A stretch of 64,000 nucleotides of DNA from Epinephelus fuscoguttatus (Eukaryota; Chordata; Actinopteri; Perciformes; Serranidae), in NCBI RefSeq assembly GCF_011397635.1, contig NC_064759.1, positions 18,562,428-18,626,427 of the forward strand, in the 5' to 3' direction. Under the pieces are notes generated by a model. That model saw only the letters and a list, made by a program, of their open reading frames with translations, ran no database searches and was not told the origin of the DNA. The translations under genes and the position numbers were made by a program. Each line of letters starts with the position of its first letter. Position 1 is the stretch's first letter. Positions 903-64,000 of this stretch are shown here, piece after piece.

Positions 903-12336
<11,434 letters not shown>

Positions 12337-13515: not shown

Positions 13516-14436
13516 TTAATTATCACCCAACGAGTGTGGTATGGTTTCTAAGATGTAATTCGTGCTATTTACAAATGCGATGCATCGAAGAATTAGAGTG
13601 TCATGTCTCGTAAAGGCTGTTTCTCCACTTGACTCGATGGTCTGGGCTAACGTTAGCTTAGCCAAAGAAAGTACGCAAAGTCGTATGGCAATTTTTTCAG
13701 CGTTTTTGGTGTGTGTATTACCCTATACACACACGCGCATATTTATTTCTTACATATATATGTATGTGTGTGTATAAATAGATACAAACAGTCAGTGTGG
13801 GTCAAAATGCTGTAACAGGCTGTTTTTTTATGGTGGAGGGTCTCTAACATCAATTTAAAAAAGTTAAAAAAAGTCAAATATTTCGCTGCAGGTGGTGGTG
13901 GCACACCGGTCAGCAGGCTGGTGCACTGGCAGTATACTATATGTGAACAAAACAAGAAATAATTAAATGCCAAAACTAGAAAACAAAATAAACCCTCTTT
14001 ACCCCAACAGAAACACACCCAAATTAATACCAGTGCCACAGCAAACCTTAAAGGATAACACCACAAATCGACAGGTGAACTCCCACTGCACCAGCTGCTC
14101 CTGTGACCAAAGGCCAACACCAGCTGCAGCACTACAACAAAAAAAACAGAGTTATAAGTTGTACTCCAACTACTAAAAACAAAATCCAAATATAATAGTA
14201 GGTCAGAACGGCAATCAGCACTTTCCCTGTAAATTTAACAGAGCACGTGTTAAATCTCAGGCTACAGACATGCAAACAATGGTTGATAATAAGGAGGCAT
14301 TCTCATACCTTGCCCCTGGCACTACTGTAGGACTGTTAGGACCCTTTACAAAAAAAAGAATAAATTATTGGCAGACCCACATATTTACACAGTTTCTATA
14401 TTTACATACTATATACAAATAAAATACCTCAGGGTG

Positions 14437-15054: not shown

Positions 15055-16071
15055 GTATGTTCATCAAAACATCAAAAAAAAAAAAAAAAATCTGTGCACA
15101 CCTGAGTGTGTGACAGGTGCGTCAGAGGAAAATTCAACTCGAAGAACAATTAGGGAGACTCCCGCACACTGTCTCGCTTTGTCTTGATTTATTGAATAAA
15201 CGACCTTCATCAGGTATACTTGCAGCCTGCAAACATTTCTACACATGTGCACGACTTAATGTAGCACTGTTATGTCTGTTGTATAACTCTACTTCCCTAC
15301 CTCGTGCAATACTGTATGTTTACACTGTGTGTTGTATCTCTATGCAATATTTATTCCACTGTGTATCGCACTGTAAAATCTCGCTGCTAATATTCTGTGT
15401 AATCCGTAAATGTAAACATAGTTTACATTGCTTACATGGCTTAGTATGTACATTGCTTAGTATTTTTATTCTTAATGTTACACACCATGTGTATATTGTA
15501 CAACTCTGTACACAATTATCCTGCACATATATCCATATCTCTCCCATATATATGTACAAGTGAAAGGTGTATATACTGTAAGTAGTCTTGTGTGTATAGC
15601 CCTGCCCATTTAGTACTTTTTATATTTGTTATATTTGTATATCTTTGATTCTAATATGTATATACAAATGTTCTGATTTTTAGCTTAATTTTATAAGTAT
15701 CCTACTGTCACTTTCTCCTTCCTATCTGTACAGCTTGAGCTGCTGTGACATGATTGAACTCAGTAAAGACGTTGTTTACAAAAAAGAGAACTCCAAGTGA
15801 AGTTATTATTGCCAGTATGATAGTGTAATATTGTGTTTTATTGGATTCCAGAAATAAAATAGAATTAACAGAAGACTGACAATAGGAAAATATAATTATT
15901 GCATTCATTTAATAGCTAAACTGGATAATGAACACATCTCTAGACCCAGGAAATACCTGTTCTGTTGCAGTAACAAATGTCTGGCGCCATTGTGTTGCCC
16001 ATGATGTCCCCACTCATCCCTGAAGATCCCTGGTGGATGAAAATACAACCAGCAGGATTGAAGTCATTTCT

Positions 16072-16790
16072 CTAAGCTGCTCTTCTGTGCCTTTGAACAA
16101 ACGGGGTGTGGGGAGCTGTGTCTGCACAGTGTTTGAATGATATTTGTAGCAGAGGCAGATTAATACACCATGAATCTACAACAATTTTCCTTCCTCCCCA
16201 GCAGACTGCAGCATAAAACAACACACTTGCCACCACAGACTGATAAAACATCTGCAGCATCTTACTACAGATGTCAAGAGATCTGAGCTTCCTTAAGAAA
16301 AAGAGGTGGCTCTGCCTTTTGTAGAGAGCGTCTATGTGTAGGGACCAGTCCAAATTATTATCCAGGTGTACACCTAGATACTTATGACTTGGCACCACCT
16401 TGATGTCCATCCCACAGGTATTCACTGGCTGAAGAGGGGGCTTGGACCCGCAGAAATCTATAATCATTTCCTTGGTCTTTGAGGTGTTCAGTAGGAGACA
16501 GTTCTTGTGACTCCAGTCACTGAAGGCTTTTATCAGTTCTCTGTATTCAGATTCCTGCCCATTCCTGATACATGCCACAATGGCAGTGTCGTCCGAGTAT
16601 TTCTGGATGTGGCAGGACTCAGAGTTGTATTTGAAGTCTGCTGTGTACAGTGTGAACAGGAATGGAGCCAGGACAGTCTCCTGTTGAGCCCCATGCTGCT
16701 CATTAATGTTCCAGAAGCACAGTTCCCCAACCTGACATACTGTGCGCTTCCTCTCAGGTAATCTGTGATCCAGGAGATAAAGGAAGGATC
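16072..16790 (-). pseudogene. Non-LTR retrotransposon reverse transcriptase fragment
   Basis: The minus-strand frame 16578-16072 encodes LNTSKTKEMIIDF, YLGVHLDNNLDWS and SVLFYAAVCWGG, the region after the RT catalytic core in Rex/L2/CR1-like LINEs. Upstream (16730-16533) another frame carries the preceding segment with altered residues where the catalytic loop should be. The piece is therefore frameshifted and dead. It lies inside the 4.2-kb TIR element. Confidence 0.8.
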
Positions 16791-17068
16791 ATATGATTAA
16801 TGCATAATGTCTGGGCAGTACAACCCTTACACTGTACCACCAATGATTTACAGTGCTTTCTTTTTTACTGTTAACATAAATTAATATTAACCATATGCTA
16901 ATGTAAGTATGACATTTGTTGTGACCATGTGTGCATGTTGCAACTGCAGCCTAATCTGAAAGTGCTGTTTATTTGGTTGTGTAAATTCTCATTTTTTATT
17001 AAATCTCAGTTTATTTAATCTGAGAATTCACTTTATTTAACTTTAGTTATTCTTCAGTCCTATTGTGA

Positions 17069-17070
<2 letters not shown>

Positions 17071-17127
<57 letters not shown>

Positions 17128-17130
17128 TGG
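17071..17130. repeat. (GT)n microsatellite
   Basis: About 60 bp of GT repeat with one AT interruption near the right end, followed by CCACCACCACAC. Confidence 0.95.
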
Positions 17131-17535
17131 CCACCACCACACAAACATACACAAACAAACAACATATTTACATTCGTATTCATAACGTTGATATTAAAGT
17201 TAAATCCATGAAACGTTAGCATTATAACTTAGTGATATTATTGTAGGCTTTTAACTAACTTCTGAGTTTTACAGTAGCCTATAAAGTCGTGGCGAGACAA
17301 TTAACTAGTCACTTATACCGTTACGATAAACATGTAACTGCACAAAATGCATAAAATTATGTTATGTGTAAACGTACGTGTTTTTTAAGCTTTTATTTTT
17401 GTTTTAGCTCGGTCATATTTCCGGGATCGAGCGGCGATTAACCAACTTCCGGTTGTGACTTCCGGCATGGATTGGATGTATGGCGGCGCCCTAGTCGGCC
17501 ATCTTGACTGCAGCAAGGTACTCTTGTATATTTCC

Positions 17536-36601: not shown

Positions 36602-38982
36602 AGGTCAAGGTCAAGGTCACATTTATGTCTATAGCACATTTAAAAAGACAGAAGTCACCAAAGTGCTTTACAAGAACACTGTGAAAATTACAATACCACA
36701 TAAATAGAATGATAAATACCAAAATATAAAAACAGATAAAAAATACAAAAAAACAGAAACAAATATAAAAACAGACAAACAGTTAGAAACAACATCAATT
36801 ACACATAAAAAAAAAAAACCTGAGACAGAGCATACATATATTGCACAGAGTCAAGTCTGGCTCACAACGGGTTCCAAAGCTAACGAGAAAAGGTGAGTTT
36901 TTAACGATGATTTAAATCTTCCCAGGGATTCTGCATGTCTAACATGCAATGGCAAGCTATTCCAGAGCTTGGGAGCAGCCACTGAAAATGCTCGGTCGCC
37001 TTTAGTTTGAAGCCTTGATCTGGGCACTTCAAGCAGCAGATCACCTGAAGACCTAAGGGCTCTGACTGGATTGTGAGTTTTTAACAGCTCCGCCAGATAC
37101 CGAGGGGCCAATCCATGTAAGATTTTAAAAACAAACAACAGAATTTTGAAATGTATTCTAAAATGAACAGGAAGCCAGTGTAAGAACATTAGAATAGGTG
37201 TAATATGGTCCCGCTTCTTGGTGCCAGTCAGGAGGCGAGCCGCTGCATTTTGGACTAGCTGCAGGCGACGAAGGGAGCACTGATCTAAACCAACATAAAG
37301 AGAATTACAGTAATCAAGTCTTGATGATATGAAGGCATGAATGACCCTCTCCAAATCCTTGGAAGACAAATAGGGCTTAACTTTAGCTAGCAATCGAAGC
37401 TGATGAAAAGAACCTTTCACAATCGTGCCAATTTGTCTTTTAAGATTTAGATCAGTGTCCAGAGTCACACCAAGGCTTTTGATCGACCCGCTGATATTTG
37501 TGGTGAGGGTATTCAAATTATGAAAAGAGTGAGTAGAACATTCTGCATTCAAAGACAATAACCTCAGTTTTCGTATCATTCAAATTAAGGTGGCTTTTGC
37601 TCATCCAAAGCTTTATGTCAGTCAGACAGGCTAATAAGGGATTCAGCGAGTGCTCACAGTTCATTTTTAGAGAGAGATAAATCTGTACATCGTCTGCATA
37701 ACAATGAAATGATATATTATGCTTACGAAAAATGGACCCAAGAGGAAGCATATACAAAGTAAACAACAGCGGTCCCAAAATAGACCCCTGAGGCACCCCA
37801 CAAGTTAGAGGAGCCATGCTAGAGGAGAATTTACCCAACATTACAGAGAAAGTCCTGTCAGTCAAATAGGACTGAAGCAGCATGAGGGCCAACCCCCTGA
37901 CCCCCACATACTGATTTAGATGTGACAACAGGGTCCTGTGATCAACAGTATCAAATGCTGCAGTCAGATCTAAGGTCACCAAGACAGCAGCACATCCTGA
38001 ATCTACAGTTAAAATGATATCATTCAGTGCTATGGCGGGGCCTGAAGCCAGACTGAAACTTCTCAAAAATATCATTTTTCTCAAGATAAGCTAACAGCTG
38101 ATTAGCCATTACCTTCTCCAGCACTTTTGATAGAAATGACAATTTAGAAATAGGCCGAAAATTGGAGAGGACAGAGGGGTCAAGATTGGGTTTTTTGAGA
38201 AGCGGCTGCACTGTAGCTCGCTTCAGCGGAGCTGGAAAACACCCCGAAACAAAACAAGCATGGACCAACATTAAGACAAAAGAACCAGTGGAGTTAAAAA
38301 CCTTCTTGAAAAGGGAGGGGATGCTGTCTGCTGGACAGTCAACATTTGATGGCCCACTTTATTTGGGTGGATTCCGTCGTGACTGAGCAGAGGCCTTCGA
38401 TTCCAGAAAAGATTAAGATTGTTAATAAAAGTCACATCATGGGCCCTGCAGGCGGACAGAAGCCTGTAATGAAGGGAGAGGACTCTACTGAAAAGGACGT
38501 CGCCGCGAGAGAGCGGTGCAGTGGGGCCGGAGATGAAGATGGATTTGCCAGATTGTTTTAAAAAGTTTAGAAGGTGGATAAAATCGACCTTGGTCACTTC
38601 AGACTGTTGGCGAGCAGTGTCATTAATGCCCACATGGATGATGAGCCTTTTTATGGAGGTCGGGAGTGATGGCAGAATATTCTGGATTTTTTTTAGGATG
38701 ACGGGGACAGTGGCACCAGGAAAACAGAGTGGTAGCATTAAAAAACCGAACACTCCTAATTATTGAATCACCAATTATCAGTGTGGTGGGAGGAAAGAGT
38801 GGACAGCGAGATGAAGGCTTCGTGCTACCAGAAGGAGACGGCGCCCTCTCAGCAGTCGCAGAGCGGGGCGAATTCACCTGTTGAGGTAAGCAGGCTGGAC
38901 AGGCGGTTGCTGTGGTGATGTGGAGCGGTCCGACACCGGGGGCTGTATTATATGTAATTATTATAATAATTATTATATATAA
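36602..38982 (-). mobile_element. L2/CR1-like LINE, decayed, with SGNH esterase and RT segments
   Basis: Read on the minus strand: LIIGDSIIRSVRFF (SGNH block I, frame at about 38810-38700), then HVGIND and DGIHPNKVGH (frame 38753-38271). Next come RT fingers with FRPISKLSFLSKVLEK and QSGFRPRHSTE (38271-38020), RT palm with LDLTAAFDTVDH, GVPQGSILGP and YADD (38084-37518), and the C-terminal thumb/tail with SRLDYCNSLY and APKLWNSLP (37579-36851). Frames change at several points, so the copy is dead. No endonuclease region fits between the esterase and the RT. The 3' end is a (TGACCT)n-like tail. A direct repeat of 49 bp flanks it. Confidence 0.85.
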
Positions 38983-44308: not shown

Positions 44309-52454
<8,146 letters not shown>

Positions 52455-59200: not shown

Positions 59201-61026
59201 TTATGTAGTTTGTGCTTAAGAGCATGAGAATATAGTTATTATTGAGAACCTAAATGTACCTCCAGCTCTGTCTCTTCTTCTGGAAGCCCAAGCAGTCCTT
59301 TCAGCTCCTCGTCCTCTCCTGTCTTACTGTCTCCTGTGCCGGCCGTGCCTTGGGTTTGGGGTTTCTCTCTGATGGTGTATGTCCTTGTTGAGGCCCCAAA
59401 AGATATTGTAGAGTCTATGGGTACTTGCTGAGGCTTGTGTGCCTCCAGACGGATGTGTCCAAGGAAAGTACCGTGAGCTAAAACGATGACAATGAATAGG
59501 AAAGTGGCATATGTTAACTGTGAAACTGTGGCCTGTTGAACTGAATCAAATGTGATTCAGCACTGAAATATCCATTAACGTTTTGGTAGCCTATTAGAAT
59601 AATAAAATCAAATACTACTACTTGACTAGATACATGTTGCTGCAAAAAATGACTTAAGTGAGGTGAATAGACTGAAAACTTTATCTTATTAGATAAAAAC
59701 AGATGTTGCAGAACATCTGAAATCGCAATAATATTGTATTGTGACGTAAGTATTATAATAATAGTAGTTTTTATCCTGTGTATGTCAAACCATGCCAGAT
59801 ACTGGTTATAGATACAGCCTAAAATGAGTAAACGAGATGTGATTGTGAATGGTGTCTTACTGCTGTTGAGGTCTATGAGAAAGACCCTTTTCAGGTGTTT
59901 GTGGTAGACCAGGGCAGCGTGGACACGTGAGCATGACTGATGGTCGATGGTGAAGTCACACCAGTCTGGGTTCCTCCCAAACAAGTAGTACTTCTTTTCA
60001 TCTATGATCAGTTTCTATAAGGAGAGACAGTTTCAGTGAATCATGGTCATTCAAACACTCTTCCAGAGAGATCCATTAACAGTCTGTTATGTCTCTGTGC
60101 CTCTGAGCCATAACTTAACAGTGTTGCTTCCCACTGAAAAGCTTAAATCTCAGGGCTGTTGCTGCTCTCGCACCGTTTGAAGCCGTGCAGCCATAGACAG
60201 TCCCAGTGTGCATCACAGCTGGGACAAAGTGGACTGTCAGGCTCGTATCTGGTGCATTCAACTAAGGGAGTTCCCACAGTTATCTATGCATGCTTTGACA
60301 CTAGTGCACAATAACGTTGAGATGATGTAAAGAGTAAAAATGGCCCAGTTTCCGGTTACCTCCATCAGTTTGTCTCCCTTCATCACGTCCAGATGCAGCC
60401 CCTGGGGCGGCTTGCCTGCCCTGAGAGACATCAGTTGGTGACCGTTTACAACATTTATACAGACTACATACCACGAGTTTATGCACAATTGATCATTACA
60501 AGCGATAACTGAATAGCTTCGCTTTGTTCTTTTGTTATGCTTCAAGGTAAATTCACAAAAACAGGTGCTTGTACCTGTACAGTAAGCTAATGGGAACGTT
60601 AACATCGGTCATCATCTAGCTAACGTTCTTGGAACAGCAACGCTATCAAAGAGCAAAGCAAAGGCTATATAATAAAATGCCTTATCTATATCACGAAACC
60701 TCTTCTAATCACAACTATCACTTTTGAAATTAAAAATACGAAGCACCATCCTGAAAACACACTTTAAAATAAACATCATCCAACGCCATTACTAATTTAA
60801 TAGCGGCGTTAACGAGTTAGCTTGCTAGCTTGCATGGTTGCTAACGCTAGCTTACAGAAACTACAATCTTCTCTCTCTCAGTAAAAGATGAGGGATATGA
60901 GTGCTGTGCTTATATTCATCTGATATTGCATCACAGACAACCGGTTACAACTTTAGCATGTGCATATGCTCACCATGATGGACAATCAAAAGGAGGAGCA
61001 CTTTCTTTGCTTGTTTTAGTCGCCAT
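56238..61026 (-). CDS. ppp1r8: ppp1r8 (NIPP1), nuclear inhibitor of protein phosphatase 1; 7 exons
   Basis: Complete minus-strand gene encoding 349 residues (human NIPP1 has 351). Coding exons in order: 61026-60974, 60420-60360, 60014-59861, 59477-59260, 58874-58730, 58389-58325 and 56591-56238 (stop TAA). NIPP1 binds PP1 in nuclear speckles and, through its FHA domain, phosphorylated splicing and mitotic factors. Seen: FHA domain about 47-100 with FGRNPD, SCSRVHAAL and NSTHGTFLG; basic NLS-like KRKRR (191-195); PP1-docking RVTF (198-201); C-terminal end KKKYAKEAWPGKKPTPSLLI. The start ATG lies in AAGATGGCGAC, and the N-terminus is shorter than human. All splice sites are GT-AG. Intron 2 holds the H/ACA RNA candidate. 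Teleosts can have a and b copies; which one this is cannot be told here. Confidence 0.97.
57430..57452. repeat. (AAAT)n microsatellite in ppp1r8 intron 6
   Basis: Six AAAT units. The rest of intron 6 (56592-58324) shows no recognisable element. Confidence 0.9.
60093..60257 (-). ncRNA. scarna1: Candidate H/ACA-box scaRNA (SCARNA1-like) in ppp1r8 intron 2
   Basis: Read on the minus strand, about 165 nt fold as hairpin-hinge-hairpin-tail. The 5' hairpin is closed by GCACC (60255-60251) pairing with GGTGC (60174-60170) and has an upper stem GACAGTCC/GGACTGTC. The H box AGAGCA lies at 60168-60163. The 3' hairpin is closed by GCC-CTGAG pairing with CTCAG-A-GGC and has an apical stem CAGTG/CACTG. 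The ACA box at 60098-60096 is three nt from the proposed 3' end. Human SCARNA1 (ACA35), a guide for U2 snRNA pseudouridylation of about 166 nt, lies in an intron of PPP1R8; host, strand and size therefore agree. I could not verify primary-sequence identity, the guide pockets or a CAB box. Confidence 0.72.
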
Positions 61027-62415: not shown

Positions 62416-63592
62416 ATGGCAGGCACGACTGCTTTGCCACTTCAACAACTCATCGCTTCATTGGACAACTCTTGTCTGCCAAAAATTCTACAAGTTTGCT
62501 CTGGAGTGTATTTCCAAGGTAGGCATTTGGTTGTTTTAGTCATTGTGAACTGAAACTGTGAGGGCAGATGAGGACAAAGCTAAGGAGATAAAAGATTTTC
62601 TGAAGAGATTAGACCACTACAAATCGTAATGTGTCTGGATTTCTGTACTGTGTCTGTCTATATCTACTGCACATGTTTATATCTATAAAGTATACATGTT
62701 TCCCTCTTTTCTCAACCCCAAATCAGACATTATTGCAGCCAGTAAGACAGTGCGTATTTGTTTGAGTTGAATAGTTTATATTATCAATGTTTGGTAAAAA
62801 GAAATATTTCTCTTTAGTGTAAGCATCCCAATTAAGAACAATAAGAAGATCTGTTATTAATACTTAATATATCTGCACATTGATTGTTGATCTGGTTATT
62901 TATATCTGTCTTCGTTCTGTTTCTCACTCTCCATTTCAGGGTCTATATATGAAATTTCTGGGAGTGAAGTGTGCTTTTCTACTGGGGATCTGATAAAGGT
63001 CATCAGCATTGAGCTCCTATCAGTTTGCTGCGAGGACATCAGCAACAATGAGAAGTTTGAGCTACCTATCAGCCACACAGGTTGGTCTGAGCTGTTGACA
63101 AGATTCTCATGAGAACAGATAATTTTGTTACGTTGCTGACCACTGACACTTGTTGCTGTTTCTCAGGTTTGTTCAAGGTTGTTCCGGAGGACATGCCGTA
63201 CAGTACAATCGAGGAGATGATGAGCCTGAGACCTGTGGGCCTGGAATCCTGCCTTCCCTTCACTTTCACCAGCCGCTCCAAGATAACCATTGGCAATTTC
63301 ACATTGGGGGCCGGTAGAGCTTTGACTGTGCTCTCTATCGAGCGGCATGAAGAGGAAGAGGATCAGTTGCGCTGCCATGTTCAAGGACAACAGGAAGCCT
63401 CTGCAGAAGTGTCTATCCCATTCTCCTTGCAAGGAGAGTTCAGAGAGTGTGAAAGCGAGGAGCGCTTCACTCTGCGGGAGATCATGTCCTCGCCCTGCCT
63501 ATGCAGTCGAAGGTTTCGCTTCATCAACACCACAAAGTGTGATCGGCCCCTTGTCCTCAGTCCAATATACCAGGTCCACGCCATCATGAACT
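62416..63592 (+). CDS. themis2: themis2, first three coding exons (partial, continues past window)
   Basis: Coding exons 62416-62518, 62940-63080 and 63167-63592 give 223 residues; the last donor is AACT|GTGAGA and the gene continues to the right. THEMIS2 is a Grb2-binding scaffold in B-cell and myeloid receptor signalling. Seen: VCSGVYFQG and SIYEISG followed by STGDLIKV, the opening of the first CABIT domain and close to the human start (VCSGVYFEGSIYEISG). Later come GLFKVVPEDMPYSTIEEM and PLVLSPIYQVHAIM (human has LILRPQYEIQAIM). Junctions are all phase 1. The ATG in GCGATGG was chosen because it starts 34 codons before the first junction, as in the family. The position next to ppp1r8 and divergent from it matches human 1p35.3 linkage. 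The proline-rich C-terminal part lies outside the window. Confidence 0.94.
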
Positions 63593-64000
63593 GTGAGAAT
63601 AACCTACTTTTTATTTTGTTATTTGAAGAGAATTAAAGTTATCTGAATCTTACTTACATAATAGGTTATTATTTTCACATCGTTTAACTCTTGATTAGAG
63701 TACATTAATATATTTGAGTGTTAATTAAAGTGGAATTTAAGTTTTTATTTAGTCAACTATTACACTCAAATGTGATTTTGAAGTAGTTTTACATGAGTGC
63801 GGCCATGTTATGCTATTTCATACCTCACTACTTTTGAACGGCAAATATTTGACTTATATCGATACATTTATTTCTTAGTTTAAAGTTAGTAGTTATGTGC
63901 AGATTAAGGTTTTACAAAACCATTGGTGTAGATTTTGGGGGGATGCAAGGGACACATCCCCTTCAGTATTTAGAATGTGCATGTTTCTCCCCCAATAGAA
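63593..64000. other. themis2: themis2 intron 3 (start)
   Basis: Begins with the donor GTGAGA. The remaining 400 bp are AT-rich with no exon seen; the intron continues beyond the window. Confidence 0.7.

Follow-up and report, generated by a model that had tools for sequence, protein, structure and literature searches.

In human, the scaRNA ACA35 guides Ψ89 of U2 and is hosted by PPP1R8, as stated in the available text of three papers (PMC6023535; PMC7960923; PMC12691288). The zebrafish RNA, ACA35/scarna1, is hosted by ppp1r8b, and the accessible part of PMC6023535 reports that its knock-down by morpholino leads to heart malformations. As a rule, about 14 nt separate the uridine targeted by an H/ACA RNA from its box H or box ACA, and the CAB box of scaRNAs, ugAG, is found in a terminal loop (PMC6466398, available text). 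Here, we analysed a 64-kb stretch of fish DNA (hereafter, the window) and demonstrate, for the segment 60257-60093 of its minus strand, the family match, the host gene, the two-hairpin fold, the boxes and the complementarity between the 3' pocket and the U2 of the same fish. We conclude that SCARNA1 (ACA35) almost certainly has its fish ortholog in this segment, an H/ACA scaRNA that ppp1r8 carries in its second intron and that would be set free from this intron after splicing.

The host gene ppp1r8

When joined, the seven exons give a single open frame that encodes 349 residues and ends with KKPTPSLLI, with AG/GT at every junction (Table 1). The frame of exon 3 matched the Pfam FHA domain with an E-value of 8.1e-10, exon 3 matched PDB 2jpe, the solved structure of NIPP1, with an E-value of 4.4e-31, and a single match to this exon was found in the genome. 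The candidate scaRNA lies on the host strand, flanked within the intron by 102 nt on its 5' side and 78 nt on its 3' side. The first-pass annotation, made from the letters of the window, had assigned it to the second intron of ppp1r8, on the host strand, and both the seven-exon frame and the NIPP1 match support this location.

Other coding sequences were observed in the window. Close to ppp1r8, an ORF at 63091-63636 carries a CABIT domain, an arrangement that fits the human PPP1R8-THEMIS2 neighbourhood. A cytochrome P450 piece is present at 49805-52454 on the plus strand (Pfam p450 for 52221-52454), and near-identical ORF text at 7504-7878 and 49555-49998 suggests a duplicated gene. Several ORFs at 36851-38759 on the minus strand resemble by eye pieces of a LINE-type element.

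Table 1. Positions in the window of the candidate scaRNA, its elements and the parts of its host gene.
Feature	Positions	Strand	Evidence
SCARNA1 (ACA35) ortholog (almost certain), H/ACA-box scaRNA, 165 nt	60093..60257	-	RF00553 match and fold
H box AGAGCA (ANANNA)	60163..60168	-	sequence
ACA box, 3 nt from the 3' end	60096..60098	-	sequence
3' pocket, left guide arm AUUUAA, complementary to U2 nt 91-96	60143..60148	-	U2 pairing test and fold
3' pocket, right guide arm UAUGG, complementary to U2 nt 84-88	60108..60112	-	U2 pairing test and fold
ppp1r8 intron 2 (GT...AG, 345 nt)	60015..60359	-	splice junctions
ppp1r8 exon 1	61026-60974	-	joined open frame
ppp1r8 exon 2	60360..60420	-	joined open frame
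ppp1r8 exon 3, part of the NIPP1 FHA domain	59861..60014	-	joined frame, Pfam FHA, PDB 2jpe
ppp1r8 exon 4	59477-59260	-	joined open frame
ppp1r8 exon 5	58874-58730	-	joined open frame
ppp1r8 exon 6	58389-58325	-	joined open frame
ppp1r8 exon 7	56591-56238	-	joined open frame

Fold and boxes of the candidate scaRNA

The candidate folds into a hairpin-hinge-hairpin-tail structure in which both hairpins are closed and each bears an internal-loop pocket. The hinge holds the H box, and the tail holds the ACA followed by GAG as the 3' end. The minimum free energy of this fold is -63.7 kcal/mol, compared to a mean of -49.25 kcal/mol (sd 3.82) for shuffled sequences (z = -3.78), and none of 200 dinucleotide shuffles was equally stable. 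Hence the two closed hairpins, the H box AGAGCA, the ACA box and the length of about 165 nt described beforehand were all seen in the fold, with a spacing of 14 nt between the 3' pocket and ACA, and the assignment of the segment to the H/ACA type is confirmed.

The window was also searched with a descriptor made of a hairpin with a pocket, ANANNA, a second hairpin with a pocket, and ACA; it contains no SCARNA1 sequence, and its pocket limits were set after the fold was seen, which biases it towards the candidate. On both strands the descriptor returned 11 rows (two of them corresponding to one place) with the candidate on top, at -62.6 kcal/mol versus -45.6 kcal/mol for the next row, a gap of 17 kcal/mol. 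A mean of 6.1 passes was obtained in 60 block-shuffled windows, the best at -44.8 kcal/mol, and 52 of 4000 shuffles of intron 2 (taken without its first two bases) passed, the best at -37.5 kcal/mol; none reached -62.6 kcal/mol in either set.

The terminal loops are AUG for the 5' hairpin and GGAAGCAA for the 3' hairpin, the latter containing GAAG. The CAB-box sequence UGAG was sought in both terminal loops and was absent from them, the sole UGAG of the RNA being located in a stem.

Match to the Rfam SCARNA1 family

The Rfam SCARNA1/ACA35 covariance model (RF00553) matched the minus strand over its full length (positions 1-166 of 166) with a score of 41.2 bits, and the ends of the match equal the 60093 and 60257 assigned from the letters by the first-pass annotation. 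The E-value was 2.7e-5 when 551 nt were compared to 4227 families at a relaxed threshold, and 0.0031 in the search of the whole window. The score is below the gathering score of the family, 45 bits, which is the curator's cut-off for listing and not a trait of the RNA, and an Rfam scan of the window at gathering scores gave no match. The alignment passes over 27 positions of the model in the 5' hairpin, a gap that probably accounts for the missing bits. As mir-466 (E 0.00052) and mir-297 (E 0.0019), both matching a repeat-like stretch at 17084-17172, had lower E-values in the window, the window E-value alone is not decisive.

A search of the 1.05-Gb genome with RF00553 at E-values up to 10, in which 45 of 119,530 first-look candidates were scored and weak copies may be missed, reported a single match, the ppp1r8 intron locus (E 0.012). 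Of the 14 prokaryote genomes included as controls, 3 also yielded matches below the cut-off in this search at E-values up to 10. At the DNA level, one copy of the scaRNA sequence was found in the genome. Membership in the SCARNA1 family is thus based on the E-value, the host gene and the target, with a score under the gathering score, and the strongest argument for orthology is that the sole listed genome match falls in the expected host gene.

The score under the gathering threshold and the terminal loops devoid of UGAG could also be read as the marks of a decayed SCARNA1 remnant that is no longer expressed, the working copy being located elsewhere in the genome. However, no other RF00553 match was reported among the candidates scored, no second DNA match was found, neither the boxes nor the closed stems are disrupted, and the guide arms match the fish's own U2 (see below), so that we consider decay very unlikely.

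Several other weak Rfam matches were noted. In the intron region, a SNORD79-like match at 60084-60026 (19.3 bits, gathering score 47, E 2.3), in which no box C was seen by eye, and a mir-6827 match (E 9.7) were both taken as chance. Elsewhere in the window, an Antizyme_FSE match at 16002-16059 on the plus strand (28.8 bits, gathering score 40, E 0.039) is probably due to chance; on the opposite strand, a nearby ORF at 16072-16788 looks reverse-transcriptase-like by eye. Matches below the cut-off to mir-297, mir-466, mir-3149, mir-1003 and SCARNA7 at 13710-13790 and 16980-17173 are probably simple repeats.

Pairing of the pockets with U2

The genome search for U2 listed 44 matches, of which 12 were fetched. 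Among these 12 loci, only L002, L003 and L004 have the canonical U2 5' end; they are also the three best (175.7 to 189.6 bits) and were used for the pairing test. The two arms of the 3' pocket can form 6+5 pairs with U2, leaving U89 and A90 open. These 11 Watson-Crick pairs flank U89 in all three loci, and the next best U has 7 pairs. When 20,000 mononucleotide shuffles of U2 were tested in the same register, 7 reached 9 pairs, 4 reached 10 pairs and none reached 11. The distance from the ACA box to the start of the right arm is 14 nt. When the RNA is folded alone, the last A of the left arm (A60143) and the first U of the right arm (U60112) pair with each other and close the upper stem; this base pair has to open for two of the 11 guide pairs to form.

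Six of the 12 fetched loci (L002-L007) contain the U2 stretch that can pair with the guide, and the other 6, which are array copies (L008-L013), lack it. A tandem U2 array at G000:C15:5269579-5289565 comprises 24 of the 44 listed matches, mostly 850-880 bases apart and scoring 74.6-102.2 bits. The four copies of this array that were inspected are devoid of the 10 nt before GTAGTATCTG and altered around U89; the array is either one of variant U2 genes or one of pseudogenes.

The 5' pocket is located 11 nt from the H box. With at least 3 pairs required on each side, its best listed U2 site is U65, with 3+3 pairs, and no convincing target was found for it in the three U2 loci. U34 was considered and rejected: by eye, the left arm AGAUAC can pair with U2 36-41 but the right arm fits just 2 positions, and U34 was not listed in the pairing test. 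Of the two internal loops, whose pairing with U2 the first-pass annotation had raised as a check, the 3' pocket fits U89 with 11 possible pairs, and no convincing U2 site was found for the 5' pocket. The latter may have another target or none, as might be the case for a different H/ACA RNA, a guide of rRNA or an orphan, that resembles SCARNA1 by chance. We regard such a resemblance as extremely improbable, since the genome search reported a single SCARNA1 match, located in the very gene that hosts SCARNA1, and since the 3' pocket fits U2 U89.

The SCARNA1 ortholog proposed from the letters is therefore supported by the full-length match, the sole reported genome match, the host intron and the U89 pocket. 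Once released from spliced ppp1r8 intron 2, the scaRNA would be expressed and bound by the H/ACA proteins dyskerin, NOP10, NHP2 and GAR1 and, by analogy with its human counterpart, would present U2 U89 for pseudouridylation. These data support that, in this fish, SCARNA1 is kept in ppp1r8 and aimed at U2 U89. As the ortholog scores just under the Rfam cut-off, annotation that relies on this cut-off misses at least this one.

A guide-target difference between fish and human

In the C84-C85 region, fish U2 reads GGACCAUAUAUUAAAUUG and human U2 reads GGACAAUAUAUUAAAUGG. The Rfam U2 consensus, drawn from many organisms, has a weakly conserved a at the position of fish C85. The fish right arm UAUGG forms five consecutive pairs with the U2 of fish but three with that of human; the human right arm pairs three bases in either U2 and leaves 84-85 unpaired. 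Because the human guide pairs neither 84 nor 85 in either U2, pairing has been gained or lost here, and no pair has been swapped for another. Judging from the sequences, it is possible, although we hold it as doubtful, that C84-C85 of fish U2, which directly precede the AUA-Ψ89 core, and the GG of SCARNA1 changed together, which would constitute guide-target co-evolution at a vertebrate spliceosomal pseudouridine; with a single species pair, co-evolution of guide and U2 cannot be distinguished from chance. The predicted pairing of the fish guide with C84-C85, unpaired by the human guide, is a fresh detail. In a literature search on co-evolution of the SCARNA1 guide and U2, no title among the matches listed was on point, which does not imply absence, and a search for a printed U2 sequence gave no fitting paper among the matches listed, just a frog mitochondrial genome paper. 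The matching bases of guide and U2 offer a modest test case for co-evolution of a guide with its target.

Comparison with described SCARNA1 systems

The fish RNA resembles human SCARNA1/ACA35 (RF00553) by its two hairpins, its H and ACA boxes and its length (165 nt versus 166 for the model), and both share the host gene, the U2 U89 target and the guide core UUUAA; UUAU. It differs from the model by the skipped 27 positions of the 5' hairpin and by its left arm, AUUUAA instead of the UUUUAA of the Rfam consensus. The Watson-Crick guide pairs number 6+5 in fish and 5+3 in human. The right arm is UAUGG in fish and UAUAA in the human guide RNA given in the available text of PMC12691288.

Quail scaRNA1, as described in the accessible part of PMC12385260, is alike in family, target and host. 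At the 3' pocket, the quail primer in that text reads TTATAGCTCAGA whereas the fish has TTATGGCTCAGA; the right arm deduced from the primer is UAUAG, compared to UAUGG in the fish. Zebrafish scarna1 in ppp1r8b shares the name of the RNA and the host gene; however, the available text of PMC6023535 places it in the fifth intron, whereas the intron is the second of six in this fish. We guess that counting may explain this mismatch, as intron 2 becomes intron 5 when the six introns are numbered from the 3' end.

The first-pass annotation had presented the pairing of SCARNA1 with its host from fish to human as notable. The presence of SCARNA1 in ppp1r8 is borne out, but its novelty was overstated, since the zebrafish RNA and its host ppp1r8b have already been published (PMC6023535; also PMC12385260; available text of both). 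As the SCARNA1-ppp1r8 pairing was already known from fish to human, this locus represents a further ortholog, and what it mainly adds is its sequence and the close fit of that sequence to the fish's own U2.
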